This document shows, in pieces, positions 5,918 through 60,696 of a stretch of 64,000 nucleotides of DNA. The notes beneath the pieces are model-generated. The model did not search any database. It saw only the letters and a list, made by a program, of their open reading frames with translations, and had not been told where the DNA came from. The stretch is from positions 199,970 through 263,969 of the forward strand of contig NZ_KL544005.1 in NCBI RefSeq assembly GCF_000711985.1, given 5' to 3'. The stretch is from Rheinheimera texasensis DSM 17496. GTDB lineage: Bacteria > Pseudomonadota > Gammaproteobacteria > Enterobacterales > Alteromonadaceae. Within the stretch, counting starts at the first letter, position 1; each line of letters begins with the position of its first letter. A program made the position numbers and the translations under genes.

Positions 5918-6074
5918 CTATACCCTCTTACGCTGACCTCTGGGTCAGTCGTCCCGAAAATTCAACTTTATATCCGGATCGCATAAAACTTCCATTGCCA
6001 AAAGATTAACCATGGAGTTATAACAGCCACTGCTCGACCTATAATTTTTAACATAATAATTTCAAGGAACATGA

Positions 6075-9000
6075 ATGAATAACTTCAAACTCTCTGCAAT
6101 TGCGGTGGTTGTAAGCTCTGCGCTCGCGCTGCCAGCTCAATCCGCATTTGCTGATTCGCTGCAACAAATGGCTGCAGCAGAAACACAATCAATGTCCGCG
6201 GTTCAGCAACAACCAACAGTTTCCGGCATGACCAATCATGTTGATGTCCAGACTGGTGAAACAACTTTCAGCTGGGCGCCGACAGGGCTCGCAAAACCCA
6301 ATATCGCTGCTGTAGCCCCCGAATATCAAATCGAATTTGCTGCCACTCATTATCTGAACGCATTGACCGGTGCAGCTGAAAAAGGTGCGTTAGTGCAATT
6401 AAAACCGGTTCTCGCACATTCATATCAGTCGGAAGACGGTGTAAAAACAGCCAAGTTCCGTCAGCAATTCATGGGCATCGACGTTTTCAACAAAGAATAT
6501 AACATTCTGATGGATGCCGAATTTAATCTGGTGGCAGGCTCTGGCCGCCTGGCAAATGTCGCAGCAGCAAAAACTGCACTGGCAGCAAATGCTCAGTTTG
6601 CTTATGCCGACGACGCCGTCAAAGCCGCATTTGCCGCCTCTGGTGGTGACGGCTCTCAGCTGTCACTGACAGAAACCACAGAAGAAAATGGTTTTGCCGT
6701 ATTTAGCGTGAATAATGCTGAAAACAGCAAAAAAGTATTGGGTACGCCACGGGTAAAACCGGTGTATTTTGAGAAAAAAGGCAAGCTGATCGCCGCGCAG
6801 TACGTTGAGATTGAAACCAGCAACCACAACGATACTGACTCTGATTATTTTGCTTATGTCATCGCCGGTGATACCGGTGAAGTTTTATTCAAAAACAATC
6901 TCAAAGCCCATGCCGGTGAGTTCGAATATCGCGTCTATGCAAACGCTGATGGTCGCCCTTGGGATGGCCCGCATGGTAACGTAGTCCCGGCTGAATCGGC
7001 AGATCAGGTTGACGCCACTGCTTATCTGGCTGCGCCATTGGTTAAAGTGGCCCATGGACCTATCAAATCTAAAGATCTGTGGCTGAAAAGCGATGCCACC
7101 ATCACTTCAGGTAACAACGTATTTGCTTATGTTGATGCGATAGCACCAAACGGTTTTACCACAGGTGACTTTGCTGCCGAAACCACGGGTCCGCTGGTAT
7201 TTGATTATAAATACCGCACCAGTGAAGCAGAATCTTCGGTGAACAACCGCAAAGCGGCGATCGTCAATCTGTTCTATATGAACAACTATCTGCATGATCA
7301 GTTCTATGACTATGGTTTTGACGAAAAAGCAGGTAATGCGCAGCTGGTAAACTATGGCCGTGGTGGTGTCGAAGGTGACCCAATCATGGCTGAAGTGCAG
7401 GATAACTCTGGCTTCGACAACGCCAATATGTCTACCCCGGCAGATGGTCGCTCACCACGGATGCAAATGTATCTGTGGGCCAGTAAAGATGCTGTGTTTG
7501 GCAAAGATTTGGGTATCACGGCAAAAACTGAGGACGGCACGGCACTGACGCTGACAGCAATGCAGGGCGCCAGTTTTGGTCCCGGTCAATTTAACGCTGA
7601 AGGCCAGGCGGTCACTTTTGTCGATACCGCAACACCAACCCGTGATGGCTGTACAGCCGCAGCCACACCGGCGGATGTTGCCGGCAAAATTGCCATTATT
7701 GACCGTGGCACCTGTAATTTCACCGTAAAAGTGAAAAATGCGCAATTAGCAGGCGCCATCGGTGTCGTCATTGTCAACAATGCCGCTGCCGGCTTGCCGG
7801 GTATGGGCGGTGCTGACGCGTCCGTCACAATCCCGAGTGTCGGTATTTCTCAGGCTGAAGGCAAAGCCATTTACGATGCCATCGCTGCCGGTAAAGTTGT
7901 AAACATCAAGATGTTCAACAACAGACCGTTTAAGGACAGCTCCTGGGATAACGCCATTGTCTCCCACGAATGGGGTCACTACATCAGTAACCGCCTGGTC
8001 GGTAACGGTAATGGTCTTTATAACAATCAGGGCCGCTCAATGGGCGAAGGTTGGGGCGATTTCCACGCACTGCTGATGGTATCAGATGCTTCGGATCTGA
8101 AACTGGCTGGTAATGATAAATTGCAGCGTGCTTACGCTGCGATCAGCTACGTCGATTCTTTCTATTACGGTATCCGTTCATTCCCGAACGGCAATAGCTT
8201 AGAAATCAACCCACGGACCTTTAAGCATATTGGCCTGGGTGATCCGGCGAAATACTTCACAGTACAAGACCCTGACACAGGCGCGGCGCAGGTCCACTCT
8301 GCCGGTTCTGTCTGGGCACAGATGCTGTGGCAGAGCTTTGTGAATCTGGTGAACCACCATAAAGATTACGACAAAGCCAAAGACCGGATGATGAGTTACC
8401 TGGTGAACGGCTACAAACTCACGCCTGTAGGTCCAACTTACACTGAAGCGCGTGATGCAATTCTGGCTGCCGCTTATGCCAAAGATCCGGAAGATTACAA
8501 AGTGATCCTCAAAGCCTTTGCCGACCGCGGTATGGGCCTGGGTGCAGTCGCACCACACCGTGATGACCCGCAACATACCGGCGTTGTGGAATCATTCAAA
8601 ACGGAACTGAGCACTTTTGACGTCACAGCACACAAGCTGGACAAAACCTTCACTGATGCCACTACTGGTTTCTGTACTAATAACAGCACGCTGGACAACG
8701 GTGAGACGGCCACAGTGCAGTTTAATGTGACCAACAAAGGCTCGGCCGTTCTGAAAGACCTGAAAGGTAAAATTGAGGTAACCAGTGGTCATCAGGTGAC
8801 CTTCGCCAACGGCGGTGCTATCACGCTGCCAGAACTGAAAGTAATGTCATCGGCTACTACAACACCGCTGTCATTTAAGCTCGAAGGTGCCAAACCAGGT
8901 GATGTGCTGCAACTGAAACTTTCGTTCCCGGAAGTTGACGAAGCTATTGTTACCAGCGAATACAGTCTGTCTGAGCGGGTGAATCTGGCATTTGCCACAG

Positions 9001-10079
9001 TCGCACCGTCAAACATGCAAAGCACGGATAACATGGAAACGCTGGCTACGCTGAATAATTTCAGTGAAAAAGTGCTGGTGGGCGGCGATCTGGCAAAAGA
9101 CAGCCGTCAACTGGACCCAACCTATGCTGCGTTTTTTGCAAGCCAGGGCCACCCGGTTGGTAAGCAGTATATGCATATTGCCAACAATGGTTTTACCTCT
9201 GACGTGGTATATGAAACCAAAGCATTCACCGTCGGTTATGCCGGTGATTTTACAATGAGTTTCTGGCATTACTATGAATTCGAAGAAGCCTATGACGGTG
9301 GTGTAGTCGAAATCAGCATCAACGGTTCGGCCTGGACTGATGTCACTAAAGTTATCAGAAGTGCAGCAAACCAACCGGTACAGTATGCGGGTTTCAGCAG
9401 TCAGGGTTATACCTCAGCGCTGGCAGAGTTACTGCCAGGCCGGAAAGCCTTCACCGGCATCATGGATGCTGACCCGGTCGAGGGTTCAACTACTTTTGGC
9501 CGTACCGAAACGATCAATTTTGGTGCTGCACTGAACGGCAATGAAGTGAAATTCCGCTTCCGCGCCGTTTCTGATTCAAATACAAATGAATCAGGCTGGT
9601 ACATTGACAACGTACAGTTCAACAATATCACGACACCGGTGTTCCATTCGGTCGTAGCCGGCGATTCAGTGGCTTGTGATAACCGTGCACCGTTGTTGTC
9701 TGGTGTGAAAGCCAGTGTTGCTGAGCTGAACGAAGGTGGCAGTTTCACGCTGACTGCAGCTGCAACAGACCGTGATGCAGCTGACAAACTGTCCTTCAGC
9801 TGGAAACAATTAAGCGGTACTGCAGCGACGCTGACGAACGCAACCACTGCAACGGCTTCAGTGACAGCACCGTCGATTGCATCAGGCTCTGAAAATCTGG
9901 TGTTTGAAGTAGCAGTTACCGACGGCACCGCAACCACTAAATCGACAGTGACAGTGAAAGTGAACGACGTGCCGGCGCCGGAAGTTATCACTCCGACCAA
10001 GAAAAGCGGTGGTGGTAGCATGAACTGGTTTGCCCTGCTGTTAGCACCTTTAGCGCTGTTACGTCGCCGTAGCAAATAA
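6075..10079 (+). CDS. secreted M36 (fungalysin-type) metalloprotease with PA domain and GlyGly-CTERM
   Basis: A 1334-residue extracellular zinc protease. Signal peptide at about 1-26, then an FTP-like propeptide region. The M36 catalytic domain carries HEWGH (H631, E632, H635) and GEGWGD (E658) as zinc ligands and catalytic base. A protease-associated domain, seen as DVAGKIAIIDRGTCNF, is inserted before the active site at about residues 519-609. Beta-rich C-terminal domains follow, including a PKD/REJ-like segment near 1215-1300. The last 25 residues are a GlyGly-CTERM signal: KKSGGGS, a hydrophobic helix, then RRRSK. Such tails are known to be processed by rhombosortase and tied to type II secretion. 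No rhombosortase gene lies in this window. Confidence 0.95.
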   Translation: MNNFKLSAIAVVVSSALALPAQSAFADSLQQMAAAETQSMSAVQQQPTVSGMTNHVDVQTGETTFSWAPTGLAKPNIAAVAPEYQIEFAATHYLNALTGAAEKGALVQLKPVLAHSYQSEDGVKTAKFRQQFMGIDVFNKEYNILMDAEFNLVAGSGRLANVAAAKTALAANAQFAYADDAVKAAFAASGGDGSQLSLTETTEENGFAVFSVNNAENSKKVLGTPRVKPVYFEKKGKLIAAQYVEIETSNHNDTDSDYFAYVIAGDTGEVLFKNNLKAHAGEFEYRVYANADGRPWDGPHGNVVPAESADQVDATAYLAAPLVKVAHGPIKSKDLWLKSDATITSGNNVFAYVDAIAPNGFTTGDFAAETTGPLVFDYKYRTSEAESSVNNRKAAIVNLFYMNNYLHDQFYDYGFDEKAGNAQLVNYGRGGVEGDPIMAEVQDNSGFDNANMSTPADGRSPRMQMYLWASKDAVFGKDLGITAKTEDGTALTLTAMQGASFGPGQFNAEGQAVTFVDTATPTRDGCTAAATPADVAGKIAIIDRGTCNFTVKVKNAQLAGAIGVVIVNNAAAGLPGMGGADASVTIPSVGISQAEGKAIYDAIAAGKVVNIKMFNNRPFKDSSWDNAIVSHEWGHYISNRLVGNGNGLYNNQGRSMGEGWGDFHALLMVSDASDLKLAGNDKLQRAYAAISYVDSFYYGIRSFPNGNSLEINPRTFKHIGLGDPAKYFTVQDPDTGAAQVHSAGSVWAQMLWQSFVNLVNHHKDYDKAKDRMMSYLVNGYKLTPVGPTYTEARDAILAAAYAKDPEDYKVILKAFADRGMGLGAVAPHRDDPQHTGVVESFKTELSTFDVTAHKLDKTFTDATTGFCTNNSTLDNGETATVQFNVTNKGSAVLKDLKGKIEVTSGHQVTFANGGAITLPELKVMSSATTTPLSFKLEGAKPGDVLQLKLSFPEVDEAIVTSEYSLSERVNLAFATVAPSNMQSTDNMETLATLNNFSEKVLVGGDLAKDSRQLDPTYAAFFASQGHPVGKQYMHIANNGFTSDVVYETKAFTVGYAGDFTMSFWHYYEFEEAYDGGVVEISINGSAWTDVTKVIRSAANQPVQYAGFSSQGYTSALAELLPGRKAFTGIMDADPVEGSTTFGRTETINFGAALNGNEVKFRFRAVSDSNTNESGWYIDNVQFNNITTPVFHSVVAGDSVACDNRAPLLSGVKASVAELNEGGSFTLTAAATDRDAADKLSFSWKQLSGTAATLTNATTATASVTAPSIASGSENLVFEVAVTDGTATTKSTVTVKVNDVPAPEVITPTKKSGGGSMNWFALLLAPLALLRRRSK

Positions 10080-17460: not shown

Positions 17461-18354
17461 ATGCCCTGGATCCAACTGCGCGTAAACACCACTGAAAAAC
17501 ATGCTGAGACTGTCAGCGACATGCTGATGAGCTGGGGCGCCCAAGCCGTCAGCTTTGTTGACGCGCAGGACACACCGATTTACGAGCCGATGCCCGGCGA
17601 AGTGATTTACTGGGCCAATACTGTGGTGGTTGGCCTGTTTGATGCCGAGCATCCGATGGATAAAGTGATCCGCAAGCTCGAACAGGTCAGTCTGTTTAAA
17701 CAGGGTGTGCAGTACAAACTAGAGCAGCTGGAAGACAAAGACTGGGAGCGCGAATGGATGGATAACTTCCACCCCATTCGCTTCGGCAACCGTTTGTGGG
17801 TCTGCCCAAGCTGGCGGGACATTCCGGATCCAAGTGCCGTCAATGTGATGCTGGACCCGGGCCTCGCTTTTGGCACCGGCACTCACCCCACCACAGCGCT
17901 TTGTATGGAATGGCTGGATGCACAGAACCTCAGCGACAGTCTGGTGGTCGATTTTGGCTGTGGTTCCGGCATTTTAGGTATCGCGGCGCTGAAACTTGGC
18001 GCCAAACGCGTGGTCGGGATCGACATTGACCCGCAGGCGATTGAAGCCAGCACCGCCAATGCGGCGCGTAATGATGTCGCCGGCCAGATTGAATTGTATT
18101 TACCGAAAGATCAACCCAAGTTGGCCGCAGATGTGGTGGTGGCGAATATCCTCGCCGGCCCGTTGGCGGAACTCAGTCAAATCATCAGCGCCTATGTCCG
18201 CCCAGGTGGTTTACTGGCGTTATCCGGTATTCTGGAAAGCCAGGCGCAATCGGTGATAGATGCCTACAGCGCAGAATTTGACTTTGACCCTGTCGCTGTC
18301 AAAGACGAATGGGTGCGTTTAAGTGCCAAGAAACGAATCTTGCAGGCCGATTAG
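17461..18354 (+). CDS. prmA: ribosomal protein L11 methyltransferase
   Basis: A 297-residue SAM-dependent enzyme that trimethylates L11. It has an N-terminal recognition domain ([16 protein letters not shown]), then the Rossmann methyltransferase core with [14 protein letters not shown], the SAM motif [20 protein letters not shown] and the NILAGPL substrate motif. E. coli PrmA has 293 residues. The order accC-prmA-dusB-fis is conserved in gammaproteobacteria. Confidence 0.97.
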
Positions 18355-18441: not shown

Positions 18442-18464
18442 GAAATGTTATAGTATAACATTTG
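18442..18464. promoter_or_regulatory. Zur-type operator
   Basis: A perfect palindrome with 10-bp arms AAATGTTATA (18443-18452) and TATAACATTT (18454-18463) around a central G, flanked by a 5' G. This is essentially the gammaproteobacterial Zur consensus known from znuA/znuCB-type promoters. It contains -10-like hexamers (TATAGT, TATAAC), so Zur bound here would block initiation. No zinc transporter gene is near; the only rightward unit it could control is the short terminated segment that follows. Confidence 0.75.
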
Positions 18465-18560
18465 TGAGTTGTTACAGCAGGCACATACAGCTCTGAAATC
18501 CAAAAACCATGTTCCTGGGATTTTCGCCTGTGGCACTCGAATATTCGGGTGCCTTTTTTA
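18465..18560 (+). ncRNA. candidate Zur-controlled small RNA
   Basis: Directly after the Zur-type palindrome lies a segment of about 95 bases that folds in layers. CAGGC (18478-18482) can pair with GCCTG (18526-18530); inside it GAAATCC (18495-18501) can pair with GGATTTTC (18518-18525, one bulge). It ends in an intrinsic terminator, GGCACTCGAA/TTCGGGTGCC plus six T (18532-18559). The longest open frame here would run through that terminator and has no ribosome binding site. The start point is an estimate. The rest of the gap to dusB (18560-18780) shows nothing I can name. Confidence 0.45.
18532..18559 (+). terminator. intrinsic terminator in the prmA-dusB gap
   Basis: A 10-bp stem (one G-T pair) with GGCAC/GTGCC at its base, followed by TTTTTT. 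It stands 178 bases after prmA and 290 before dusB, so it does not immediately follow any annotated protein gene; it fits a short RNA starting at the Zur-type site. Confidence 0.8.
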
Positions 18561-18849: not shown

Positions 18850-19821
18850 GTGCGCATCGGTCCTTATCAACTTGACAACAATGTGATTTGTGCCCCGATG
18901 GCCGGTGTAACGGATTTCACTTTTCGTGAGCTGTGCCGCCGGTTTGGTGCCGGTTTAGCTGTATCAGAAATGATGTCCAGCAACCCTTTGGTCTGGCAAA
19001 GCGAAAAGTCATTGAAACGGATGTCACATGCAGATGAAACCGGCTTACGGTCGGTGCAGATTGCAGGTGCAGATCCGCAGCAGATGGCAGAAGCTGCCCA
19101 GTTTAACGTCGAACATGGCGCCCAGATTATCGACATCAATATGGGTTGTCCGGCGAAGAAAGTGAATAAGAAGCTGGCTGGTTCGGCACTGTTACAGTAC
19201 CCGGAATTGGTAGAGCAGATTATTCAGGCAGTGGTCGGCGCAGTGGATGTGCCGGTAACACTGAAAATCCGCACAGGCTGGGACCCGGAACACAAAAACG
19301 GCGTCCAGATTGCGCGGCTTGCCGAAGACAACGGCATTCAGGCCTTAGCGGTGCATGGCCGCACCAAAGCCTGTATGTATAAAGGTGAAGCCGAATACGA
19401 CACTATCCGCGCGATTAAGCAGGCGGTGTCCATTCCGGTGGTAGCCAACGGTGATATCACCAGTGCACAAAAAGCCCGGTTTGTGCTCGATTATACCGGT
19501 GCCGACGCCATTATGATTGGCCGTGCGGCACAGGGCCGGCCCTGGATTTTCCGGGAAGTGGTGCACTATCTGACCACAGGACAAGAACTTCCGCCGCCTG
19601 CATTGCAGGAAGTGCGGCAGATTTTGCTGGAACATGTCCGCGGTCTGCATCAGCTTTATGGTGATGTGTTAGGTCCAAGAATCGCCCGCAAACATGTGGG
19701 ATGGTATCTGGCCGAACAAGACAGCGCAGGACTGTTTCGCAGTGAATTTAATGGCATTGAGGACGCGTTACAGCAAATCGATGCTTTAAATCAGTATTTC
19801 GAACAACTAGCAGCAACCTAA
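18850..19821 (+). CDS. dusB: tRNA-dihydrouridine synthase B
   Basis: A 323-residue flavoenzyme that reduces uridine to dihydrouridine in tRNA. I place the start at the GTG at 18850 (V/MRIGPYQL), which aligns with E. coli MRIGQYQL; the frame is open further upstream. Family motifs are intact: [38 protein letters not shown] with the catalytic Cys, [11 protein letters not shown], and [12 protein letters not shown]. It is followed by fis after 18 bases, the classic dusB-fis operon. Confidence 0.96.
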
Positions 19822-59790: not shown

Positions 59791-60696
59791 TCAGAACTTA
59801 TGTTCGATGCCCACTGCCAGATAATCGGTATCGGCTTTGTTGTAGAAATCAAAACTGCTGTACCAGGCGAATAACTTGGTCTCTTTGCCGATTTTGTAAT
59901 CAGCGCCAAGGGTGTAACCGTCGTGATCTTCCAGCGTCTGGTACTGTGCTTTCAGTTCAAACTTATTCAGCGGATAAGCCGCGTTTAACAGATAACCGTC
60001 TTCTTTGGTGCCGCCAGTCATCACTTCCTGTTGGTGTAAACCGGCACCTAATTTGATTTTAGCGACTTTGCCCTGCACAAATAAGCGGCTACTATCGTAA
60101 CCATTGACGTCGTTGTCCATCGACACTGACGCATACAACGGGCTGTCTTTCAGGCTGTCATCGCCATACATCAGCGCTACAGACTGACCATCCAGACCTT
60201 TTTCTGAGTCTTCCATAATATGGGTCACCAGCAAGGAGAAACCGGCAAACTTCGGCGTGATATAAACCAGCGAGTTGTTCATCCGGTTTTCGCCTTTCCA
60301 CAAGGTCTTGATATCGGCCTCGTAGTCGTTGAACAAGTCCATTTTACCTTGCGATAATTTCAGCGCGGTGTCATTGCGCCCTGCTTTGATAGTACCCCAG
60401 CTCCCAGTCAGACCAATAAACTGGTCGCGTCCTTTGATATTTTTTTCGTTGGCTTCGTCGGTCAGGTCGACTTCCCATTCCAGCTGATAAATCAGCGTCA
60501 GGTCATCTTCCAGTTTATAGTCCCCTTTGACGCCAAACCGGGATGCATTGCTTTTTAATTCGGAGAAACGGCCGGCGCCATCATCTGAGCTTTGCGCCGA
60601 TACGTTGATTTTACCGTACACCGTCAGTGGGTCAGCCTGAACTGCACCCACCAGACCCAACAACATGGCAACGACCACAGCTTTTTTTGCGAACAT
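59791..60696 (-). CDS. Gram-negative general porin, PhoB-controlled
   Basis: 301 residues starting at MFAKKAVVVAML (60696; AAGGAT site), with a signal peptide ending VQA. The mature protein begins DPLTVYGKINVSAQ and contains SRFGVKGDYKLEDDLTLIYQLEWEVD and RDQFIGLTGSWGTIKAGR, the porin_4 pattern, and ends in a terminal Phe (GIEHKF). Six Pho-type repeats lie upstream, so it is probably a phosphate-starvation porin, comparable to the porin next to phoB in Shewanella as I recall it. Selectivity for phosphate is inferred. Confidence 0.9.
   Translation of the reverse strand: MFAKKAVVVAMLLGLVGAVQADPLTVYGKINVSAQSSDDGAGRFSELKSNASRFGVKGDYKLEDDLTLIYQLEWEVDLTDEANEKNIKGRDQFIGLTGSWGTIKAGRNDTALKLSQGKMDLFNDYEADIKTLWKGENRMNNSLVYITPKFAGFSLLVTHIMEDSEKGLDGQSVALMYGDDSLKDSPLYASVSMDNDVNGYDSSRLFVQGKVAKIKLGAGLHQQEVMTGGTKEDGYLLNAAYPLNKFELKAQYQTLEDHDGYTLGADYKIGKETKLFAWYSSFDFYNKADTDYLAVGIEHKF

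Follow-up and report, generated by a model that had tools for sequence, protein, structure and literature searches.

The 495-nt gap between prmA and dusB in the window (the whole 64-kb stretch of DNA that was analyzed) probably encodes a small RNA (sRNA) that is repressed by Zur and acts in trans to spare zinc, blocking the translation of exported zinc-type hydrolases; in some relatives, the same RNA appears to be the 3′ untranslated region (UTR) of an mRNA for an AztD-like protein. On balance, we also favor a fuller and more tentative reading: that this sRNA, the first under Zur control, does for zinc what RyhB does for iron, was born as the 3′ UTR of a zinc-chaperone mRNA, was freed by the loss of an open reading frame (ORF), and silences a set of exoenzymes (M2, M6, M9, M19, M20, M28, M35, and M36 peptidases and amidohydrolases) through a single 8-nt loop region. 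The features on which these readings rest are collected in Table 1.

Table 1. Features of the prmA-dusB locus and of the candidate target in the window
Feature	Position	Strand	Remarks
Zur operator	18442..18464	.	GAAATGTTATAGTATAACATTTG; inner perfect palindrome at 18443-18463
Putative extended -10 element	18446..18454	+	TGTTATAGT; within the operator, proposed by eye
Candidate sRNA, ~97 nt	18462..18558	+	predicted fold -30.0 kcal/mol, z -2.42; conserved core plus terminator
Seed hairpin	18495..18525	+	GAAATCC...GGGATTTTC; stem letters unlike UCAUC/GAUGA of relatives
Invariant seed core	18508..18520	+	CATGTTCCTGGGA; identical in 7/7 sequences
Loop region	18509-18516	+	AUGUUCCU; complementary to AGGAACAU
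Intrinsic terminator	18532..18559	+	stem 18532-18553, then T run
prmA, upstream neighbor	17461..18354	+	ORF; name from the preliminary description
dusB, downstream neighbor	18850..19821	+	ORF, protein search; name from the preliminary description
M36 metallopeptidase, candidate target	6065..10079 (CDS 6075-10079)	+	signal-like N terminus

We propose that, when zinc is present, Zn-Zur would occupy the operator, over the -10 region, and block transcription. When zinc is scarce, Zur would leave the operator and an RNA of ~97 nt, ending at 18554-18559, would be made. Its hairpin would expose AUGUUCCU for pairing in the cell with AGGAACAU, over 7 to 14 bp when flanks are included, and this pairing would span the Shine-Dalgarno sequence and spacer of messages that encode exported zinc-type hydrolases, so that ribosomes could not enter. 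The presumed purpose is economy: exported zinc enzymes would carry zinc out of the cell, and under scarcity they would no longer be translated. In relatives, the same RNA would be the 3′ UTR of a Zur-box-preceded mRNA for an AztD-like zinc chaperone; in the lineage of the window, the ORF is absent and the RNA would be made alone.

The operator is evident from the letters themselves. The preliminary description reported a perfect 10-1-10 palindrome with a fit to the Zur consensus in a 495-base gap, and all three observations stand: two 10-nt arms (18443-18452 and 18454-18463) are 100% complementary across a 1-nt spacer, and the measured prmA-dusB spacing is the same. Compared with GAAATGTTATANTATAACATTTC, which we take to be the Zur motif, the site departs from it at 1 of 22 fixed positions (0 such matches expected), and it is the sole match with ≤3 mismatches in the 64 kb, with 0 in 100 shuffles. 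The exact core, GTTATANTATAAC, is found at only two places in the 4.59-Mb genome, the window locus and directly before the gene for the zinc chaperone GTPase ZigA (NCBIfam, 662 bits; cut-off, 600). A copy with one mismatch is flanked by a TonB receptor gene on one side and by the gene for a small membrane protein (MerC-like by eye; no match in NCBIfam) on the other, next to a second AztD-like gene (39% identity), and a Zur-type motif precedes AztD-like genes in five relatives. The genome has two FUR-family genes, one of which has Zur as its best match (E 2.1e-46; 157.7 bits, under the NCBIfam cut-off of 167 bits), which supports the earlier suggestion of Zur control. As a gammaproteobacterial Zur operator, the site thus combines a fit to the consensus with the presence of a Zur-like protein in the genome and of the motif at zinc genes. 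Because an extended -10 look-alike, TGTTATAGT, lies inside the operator, transcription probably starts at the operator's right edge, at ~18460-18464; the promoter scan reported no site at 18446..18454, and a good -35 hexamer was not seen by eye.

Elsewhere in the genome, the locus L144 (contig C11, 7586-11869) holds genes for a His-rich TonB receptor and this second AztD-like protein and a divergent MerC-like gene; these genes are a probable zinc cluster with a common Zur-like box. Another small membrane protein that is MerC-like by eye is encoded on the minus strand of the window, at position 60097 on the reverse complement.

Downstream of the operator, ~95 bases had been described as able to fold and to end in a strong terminator. 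The 95-nt fold has a z of -2.45, with equally good folding in 3 of 200 shuffles, and a terminator hairpin with a T run lies at 18532-18553. A single terminator-type site per 1.2 kb is by itself within chance (mean, 1.7), but all seven genomes that bear the core have a terminator 3′ of it. We judge it extremely unlikely that, in place of a trans-acting RNA, the locus provides a cis element or a small ORF under Zur control: reading frames open with a GTG at 18464 (10 codons) and with an ATG at 18509 (through the terminator), but a ribosome-binding site was not seen before either, and by eye the frames past MFLG differ among species. The small-ORF reading was rejected on these two grounds. An Rfam scan of the gap found no family at the gathering score (the best was IS102 RNA; E 0.039, 26.2 of 46 bits), and the candidate falls outside the RyhB RNA family proper.

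The gap before dusB can be read in 21 of 22 genomes of the genus, G020 being the exception. CATGTTCCTGGGA followed by a terminator occurs in seven of these gaps, those of the window genome (G000) and of six relatives (G018, G006, G004, G013, G017, and G019), and is absent from the other 14 loci, searched to ~1.5 kb upstream of dusB. An alignment of the gap among relatives, as proposed in the preliminary description, thus bears out a conserved element where the core is present, invariant in all 13 columns of the seven sequences at a mean column identity of 60%, but the element is missing from two-thirds of the readable genomes. We regard the support for the seed as strong and that for the hairpin as modest. 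In G006, G004, and G019, UGUUCC is predicted to be unpaired at a probability near 1, with the flanking A and U mostly pairing together and a short GC-rich stretch plus UCAUC/GAUGA closing the loop; G013 and G017, with the flanks that were chosen, fold differently, and in the G000 fold part of the seed (GUU) is paired. As to compensatory changes in the stem, by eye, two pairs of the comparable outer stem in G000 would be altered on both sides (AAAUC/GAUUU versus UCAUC/GAUGA), and one pair is broken in G018.

The seven loci come in two arrangements. A Zur box stands directly before the core in G000, G018, and G006, where the AztD-like gene is absent from the gap and the RNA would be free-standing. 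In G004, G013, G017, and G019 (R. riviphila is among these four), a Zur box lies ~26 nt upstream of a gene for a 422-aa lipoprotein-like protein, and the core, with its common terminator, lies in the 3′ UTR of that gene, as expected of a 3′-UTR-derived sRNA; in the window, there is no ORF ahead of the core. The G004 copy of the 422-aa protein resembles AztD in searches of PDB sequences (E 9e-13) and NCBIfam (E 1e-26), and we call it AztD-like rather than AztD proper because it reaches 93.5 bits against an NCBIfam cut-off of 400. This Zur box and AztD-like gene are also present in G020, where a contig end truncates the gene. The row of Zur box, core, and terminator kept in G018 and G006, together with core and terminator in four more genomes, strengthens the original reading of a short noncoding RNA. 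The accompanying remark that no zinc gene is nearby is right for the prmA-dusB gap of the window; it does not extend to the four relatives (and G020, as far as its contig goes) with an AztD-like gene between prmA and dusB, or to the window as a whole, which contains the M36 metallopeptidase gene at 6075-10079.

Given that, in relatives, the gap contains a Zur box and an AztD-like gene ending in this same 3′ UTR, the window resembles such a gene with its ORF removed, and the locus could be read as a relic: an aztD-like gene was deleted, and its Zur promoter and terminator region is still transcribed but has no function. We consider this very unlikely, because the 13-nt core is invariant with or without the ORF while its flanks diverge, and because the complement of the core is concentrated at gene starts of metallo-hydrolases (see below). 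The simplest history would be loss of the ORF between the Zur box and the 3′ UTR in the lineage of the window; the comparison has no outgroup and would also allow the reverse order, with the free RNA preceding the 3′-UTR form.

Wider searches placed the element in the same genus. A DNA similarity search of 60 genomes gave matches in eight, of which only the window's own and that of G018 were long and the remainder were operator or terminator pieces. The exact 13-mer had seven matches in 196 genomes of the family (8 of them of the genus), four in the genus at the dusB locus (its own included) and three elsewhere, in stretches that look coding by eye. A stricter core-plus-terminator pattern matched six loci among 85k species (4 Rheinheimera and 2 Gammaproteobacteria MAGs), all of them in the genus set. 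Upstream of dusB, G018 (L064) and G009 (L069) have polyketide-synthase-like or thioesterase-like genes (by eye) in the place of prmA; the Zur box and RNA are present between these genes and dusB in G018 and absent in G009. An imperfect palindrome, CCCAGG(A/G)-CATAG...CTATGTGACCTGGG, recurs in L142, L143, L024, L025, and L031 and is probably a repeat that the genus carries.

RyhB and PrrF are Fur-controlled iron-sparing sRNAs whose seeds cover the mRNA starts of enzymes that use that metal. The candidate would be alike in that a metal-sensing repressor governs a short RNA with a terminator and with a seed over the start regions of metalloenzyme mRNAs; it differs in regulator and metal (Zur and zinc), in its targets (exported hydrolases), and in its unrelated sequence, with no Rfam family at the cut-off. 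In mode of working, it is of the RyhB kind insofar as its seed is complementary to several metalloenzyme mRNA starts and is conserved, with a Rho-independent terminator, in 7/7 sequences. RsaC, which responds to manganese, is a large RNA with other targets. The passages on metal-responsive sRNAs in a 2022 review describe RsaC (MntR, Staphylococcus aureus) as being freed from a longer precursor (PMC9294342), a likeness to the 3′-UTR form in R. riviphila. The same passages list two further pairs of a metal sensor and an sRNA, s-SodF (Nur, Streptomyces) and NikS (NikR, Helicobacter), which resemble our candidate in this pairing and differ in metal (nickel), hosts, and targets. For Escherichia coli, an excerpt of PMC9825181 describes a Zur-L31p-L31 circuit that extends Zur control to the translation of another mRNA; there, unlike here, the protein L31p and not an sRNA acts on the mRNA. 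Iron, manganese, and nickel sensors have partner sRNAs, and for Zur the table of the review has the entry “NR” (none reported), its accompanying text expecting further metal-sparing RNAs and naming zinc among the metals (PMC9294342). A Zur-dependent sRNA is raised as a possibility only in the relevant part of a Vibrio cholerae paper (PMC8248653). Among the matches listed from the open-access literature, there was no described case of a Zur-regulated or zinc-sparing sRNA, in line with the statement in the preliminary description that no Zur-controlled small RNA was known at prmA-dusB. The dusB locus is a specific candidate, with an operator, a seed, a target list, and natural presence/absence variants, and one RNA in two states, 3′ UTR and free gene, would make the birth of an sRNA testable. 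The seed, the target class, and the 3′-UTR status in relatives lay beyond the reach of the preliminary description.

In the window genome, CAGGAACN{2,8}ATG matches 105 places, compared to 9 for a reversed-pattern control. One hundred of these places were listed and all 100 examined; 33 genes passed a true-start filter (ORF of at least 100 aa and ≤45 open codons upstream, with start codons picked by a simple script), and all were scanned with Pfam, genes without a match being counted as non-zinc. Metallo-hydrolases make up six of the seven genes with CAGGAACAT (also written CAGGAACAU) before the start (M35, M28, M19, M9, M6, and an amidohydrolase; the seventh encodes a GspH-like protein), 3/8 of those with CAGGAACA but not T (M28, M20, and M2), and 2/18 of those with CAGGAAC but not A (M28 and a metallo-beta-lactamase-fold protein), a trend with a p of 0.0002 (0.0005 by permutation). 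Zinc use by these hydrolase families is established, and other metals can serve in some amidohydrolases and M20/M28 enzymes; the N termini were inspected by eye to judge export. Relatives of the target families account for 2 of 341 genes sampled from 459 kb of the window genome (the window itself and 395 kb in scattered stretches), none with CAGGAAC before the chosen start, a base rate that covers the families found and not every exported zinc enzyme. Assumed base rates of 2% or 5% give 4e-10 or 1e-7 for 6/7. The M36 gene of the window has AGGAACATG at 6065-6073, ahead of its CDS, and its predicted duplex (-16.1 kcal/mol) is the seventh strongest of the 341 gene starts. It is also the one recognized zinc peptidase among the 15 strongest (recognized partly by eye); energy alone is a poor guide, because most of the top-ranking background duplexes belong to genes that do not encode zinc enzymes.

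The M28 family provides a set of genes that were not chosen by motif. Pfam found 14 M28 genes in two sRNA-bearing genomes (G000 and G006) and 12 in two without the sRNA (G014 and G015). [CT][AG]GGAAC lies within 25 nt of the start in 7/14 and 0/12, respectively (Fisher p = 0.006), against a background of 2/341 sampled starts; the genomes are akin, so that this and other contrasts between genomes with and without the sRNA represent few independent events, and half of the M28 genes of the sRNA-bearing genomes are without the site. Mean duplex energies are -13.4 and -8.5 kcal/mol (p 0.013); when the core was shuffled 300 times, the difference never reached that of the real core. Relative to background, pairing is modestly better for the G000 M28 genes (p 0.03), compared to a p of 0.89 for the M28 genes of genomes without the sRNA. 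Two M28 starts, L351 (G000) and L338 (G006), pair better than every one of the 341 background starts; the former (C5:1048449, minus strand) has GCGGGAACATGG at its start and the strongest M28 duplex, -21.8 kcal/mol. Orthologous M28 LapA-like genes in G000, G018, G006, G017, G019, and G011 keep CAGGAACA at the ribosome-binding site while neighboring bases change.

Complementary sites at related genes recur in other genomes. A first search of the seven sRNA-bearing genomes with a 12-mer (≤1 mismatch) found 91 places, 7 of which were the RNA itself; 50 of the remaining 84, 20 of them hand-picked, were examined, the rest being mainly in G004, G013, and G018. Start sites among those 50 belonged to metallopeptidases (L126, L127, and L131), an amidohydrolase (L122), a GspH-like protein (L137), and a sigma factor (L101), and the search pointed to the start of an M28 aminopeptidase gene in G006 and to M9 collagenase starts in G004 and G013. 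In 14 other genomes, CAGGAACATN{1,6}ATG matched 63 places, 5 of which fall on the antisense strand of the RNA itself; L268 and L294 coincide with L127 and L131 of the first search. Gene identities in this set are from Pfam or NCBIfam, with L277 identified via the M28 search and L273, L304, and L314 by near-identical N termini (by eye). Metallo-hydrolases account for 3/3 true starts in G018, 4/4 in G006, 1/3 in G004, and 1/4 in G013, and for 0/3 in six genomes of the core-less branch (G014, G015, G008, G007, G001, and G002). No true-start CAGGAACAT gene was found in G017 and G019, where the core is present; the M28 gene of these two genomes carries CAGGAACAG and their M9 gene CAGGAACTT.

Metallo-hydrolases were also found at 3/3 true-start CAGGAACAT genes of G009 and 2/4 of G011, though both genomes are without the core at the locus. 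This persistence, and the GGA within the ribosome-binding site, which is also a feature of CsrA sites, would suit a reading in which CAGGAAC is a ribosome-binding or CsrA-type site common to exported peptidases and used by another regulator, its match to the RNA being a coincidence. We think this unlikely, as the enrichment climbs with complementarity to the loop beyond GGA, the site is absent from the M28 genes of the two genomes without the sRNA, and the real core exceeds each of its shuffles there. Moreover, the strongest single pairing, at the start of an amidohydrolase gene in G004, matches TCCCAGGAATATGG with CCAUGUUCCUGGGA over 14 nt with one G-U (-26.3 kcal/mol).

Sites are present at non-zinc genes as well: those for the GspH-like protein (G000), RseA (G004 and G013), a dienelactone hydrolase and the sigma factor (G004), a TonB receptor and an S8 protease (G013), and MksE and a LysR protein (G011). 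These sites, and the fact that sequence does not give the direction of regulation, leave some room for a real Zur-controlled sRNA that activates or stabilizes the hydrolase mRNAs or acts chiefly on other targets. Such a role seems highly improbable to us, since the predicted pairing covers the Shine-Dalgarno sequence, the usual repressing geometry for RyhB-type sRNAs, and repression of the hydrolase mRNAs is the direction that we would expect. The start of the RseA gene (L292 and L298, in G004 and G013) reads CAGGAACATGTATG, with no difference between the two genomes in the stretch shown, and RseA is a possible non-zinc target.
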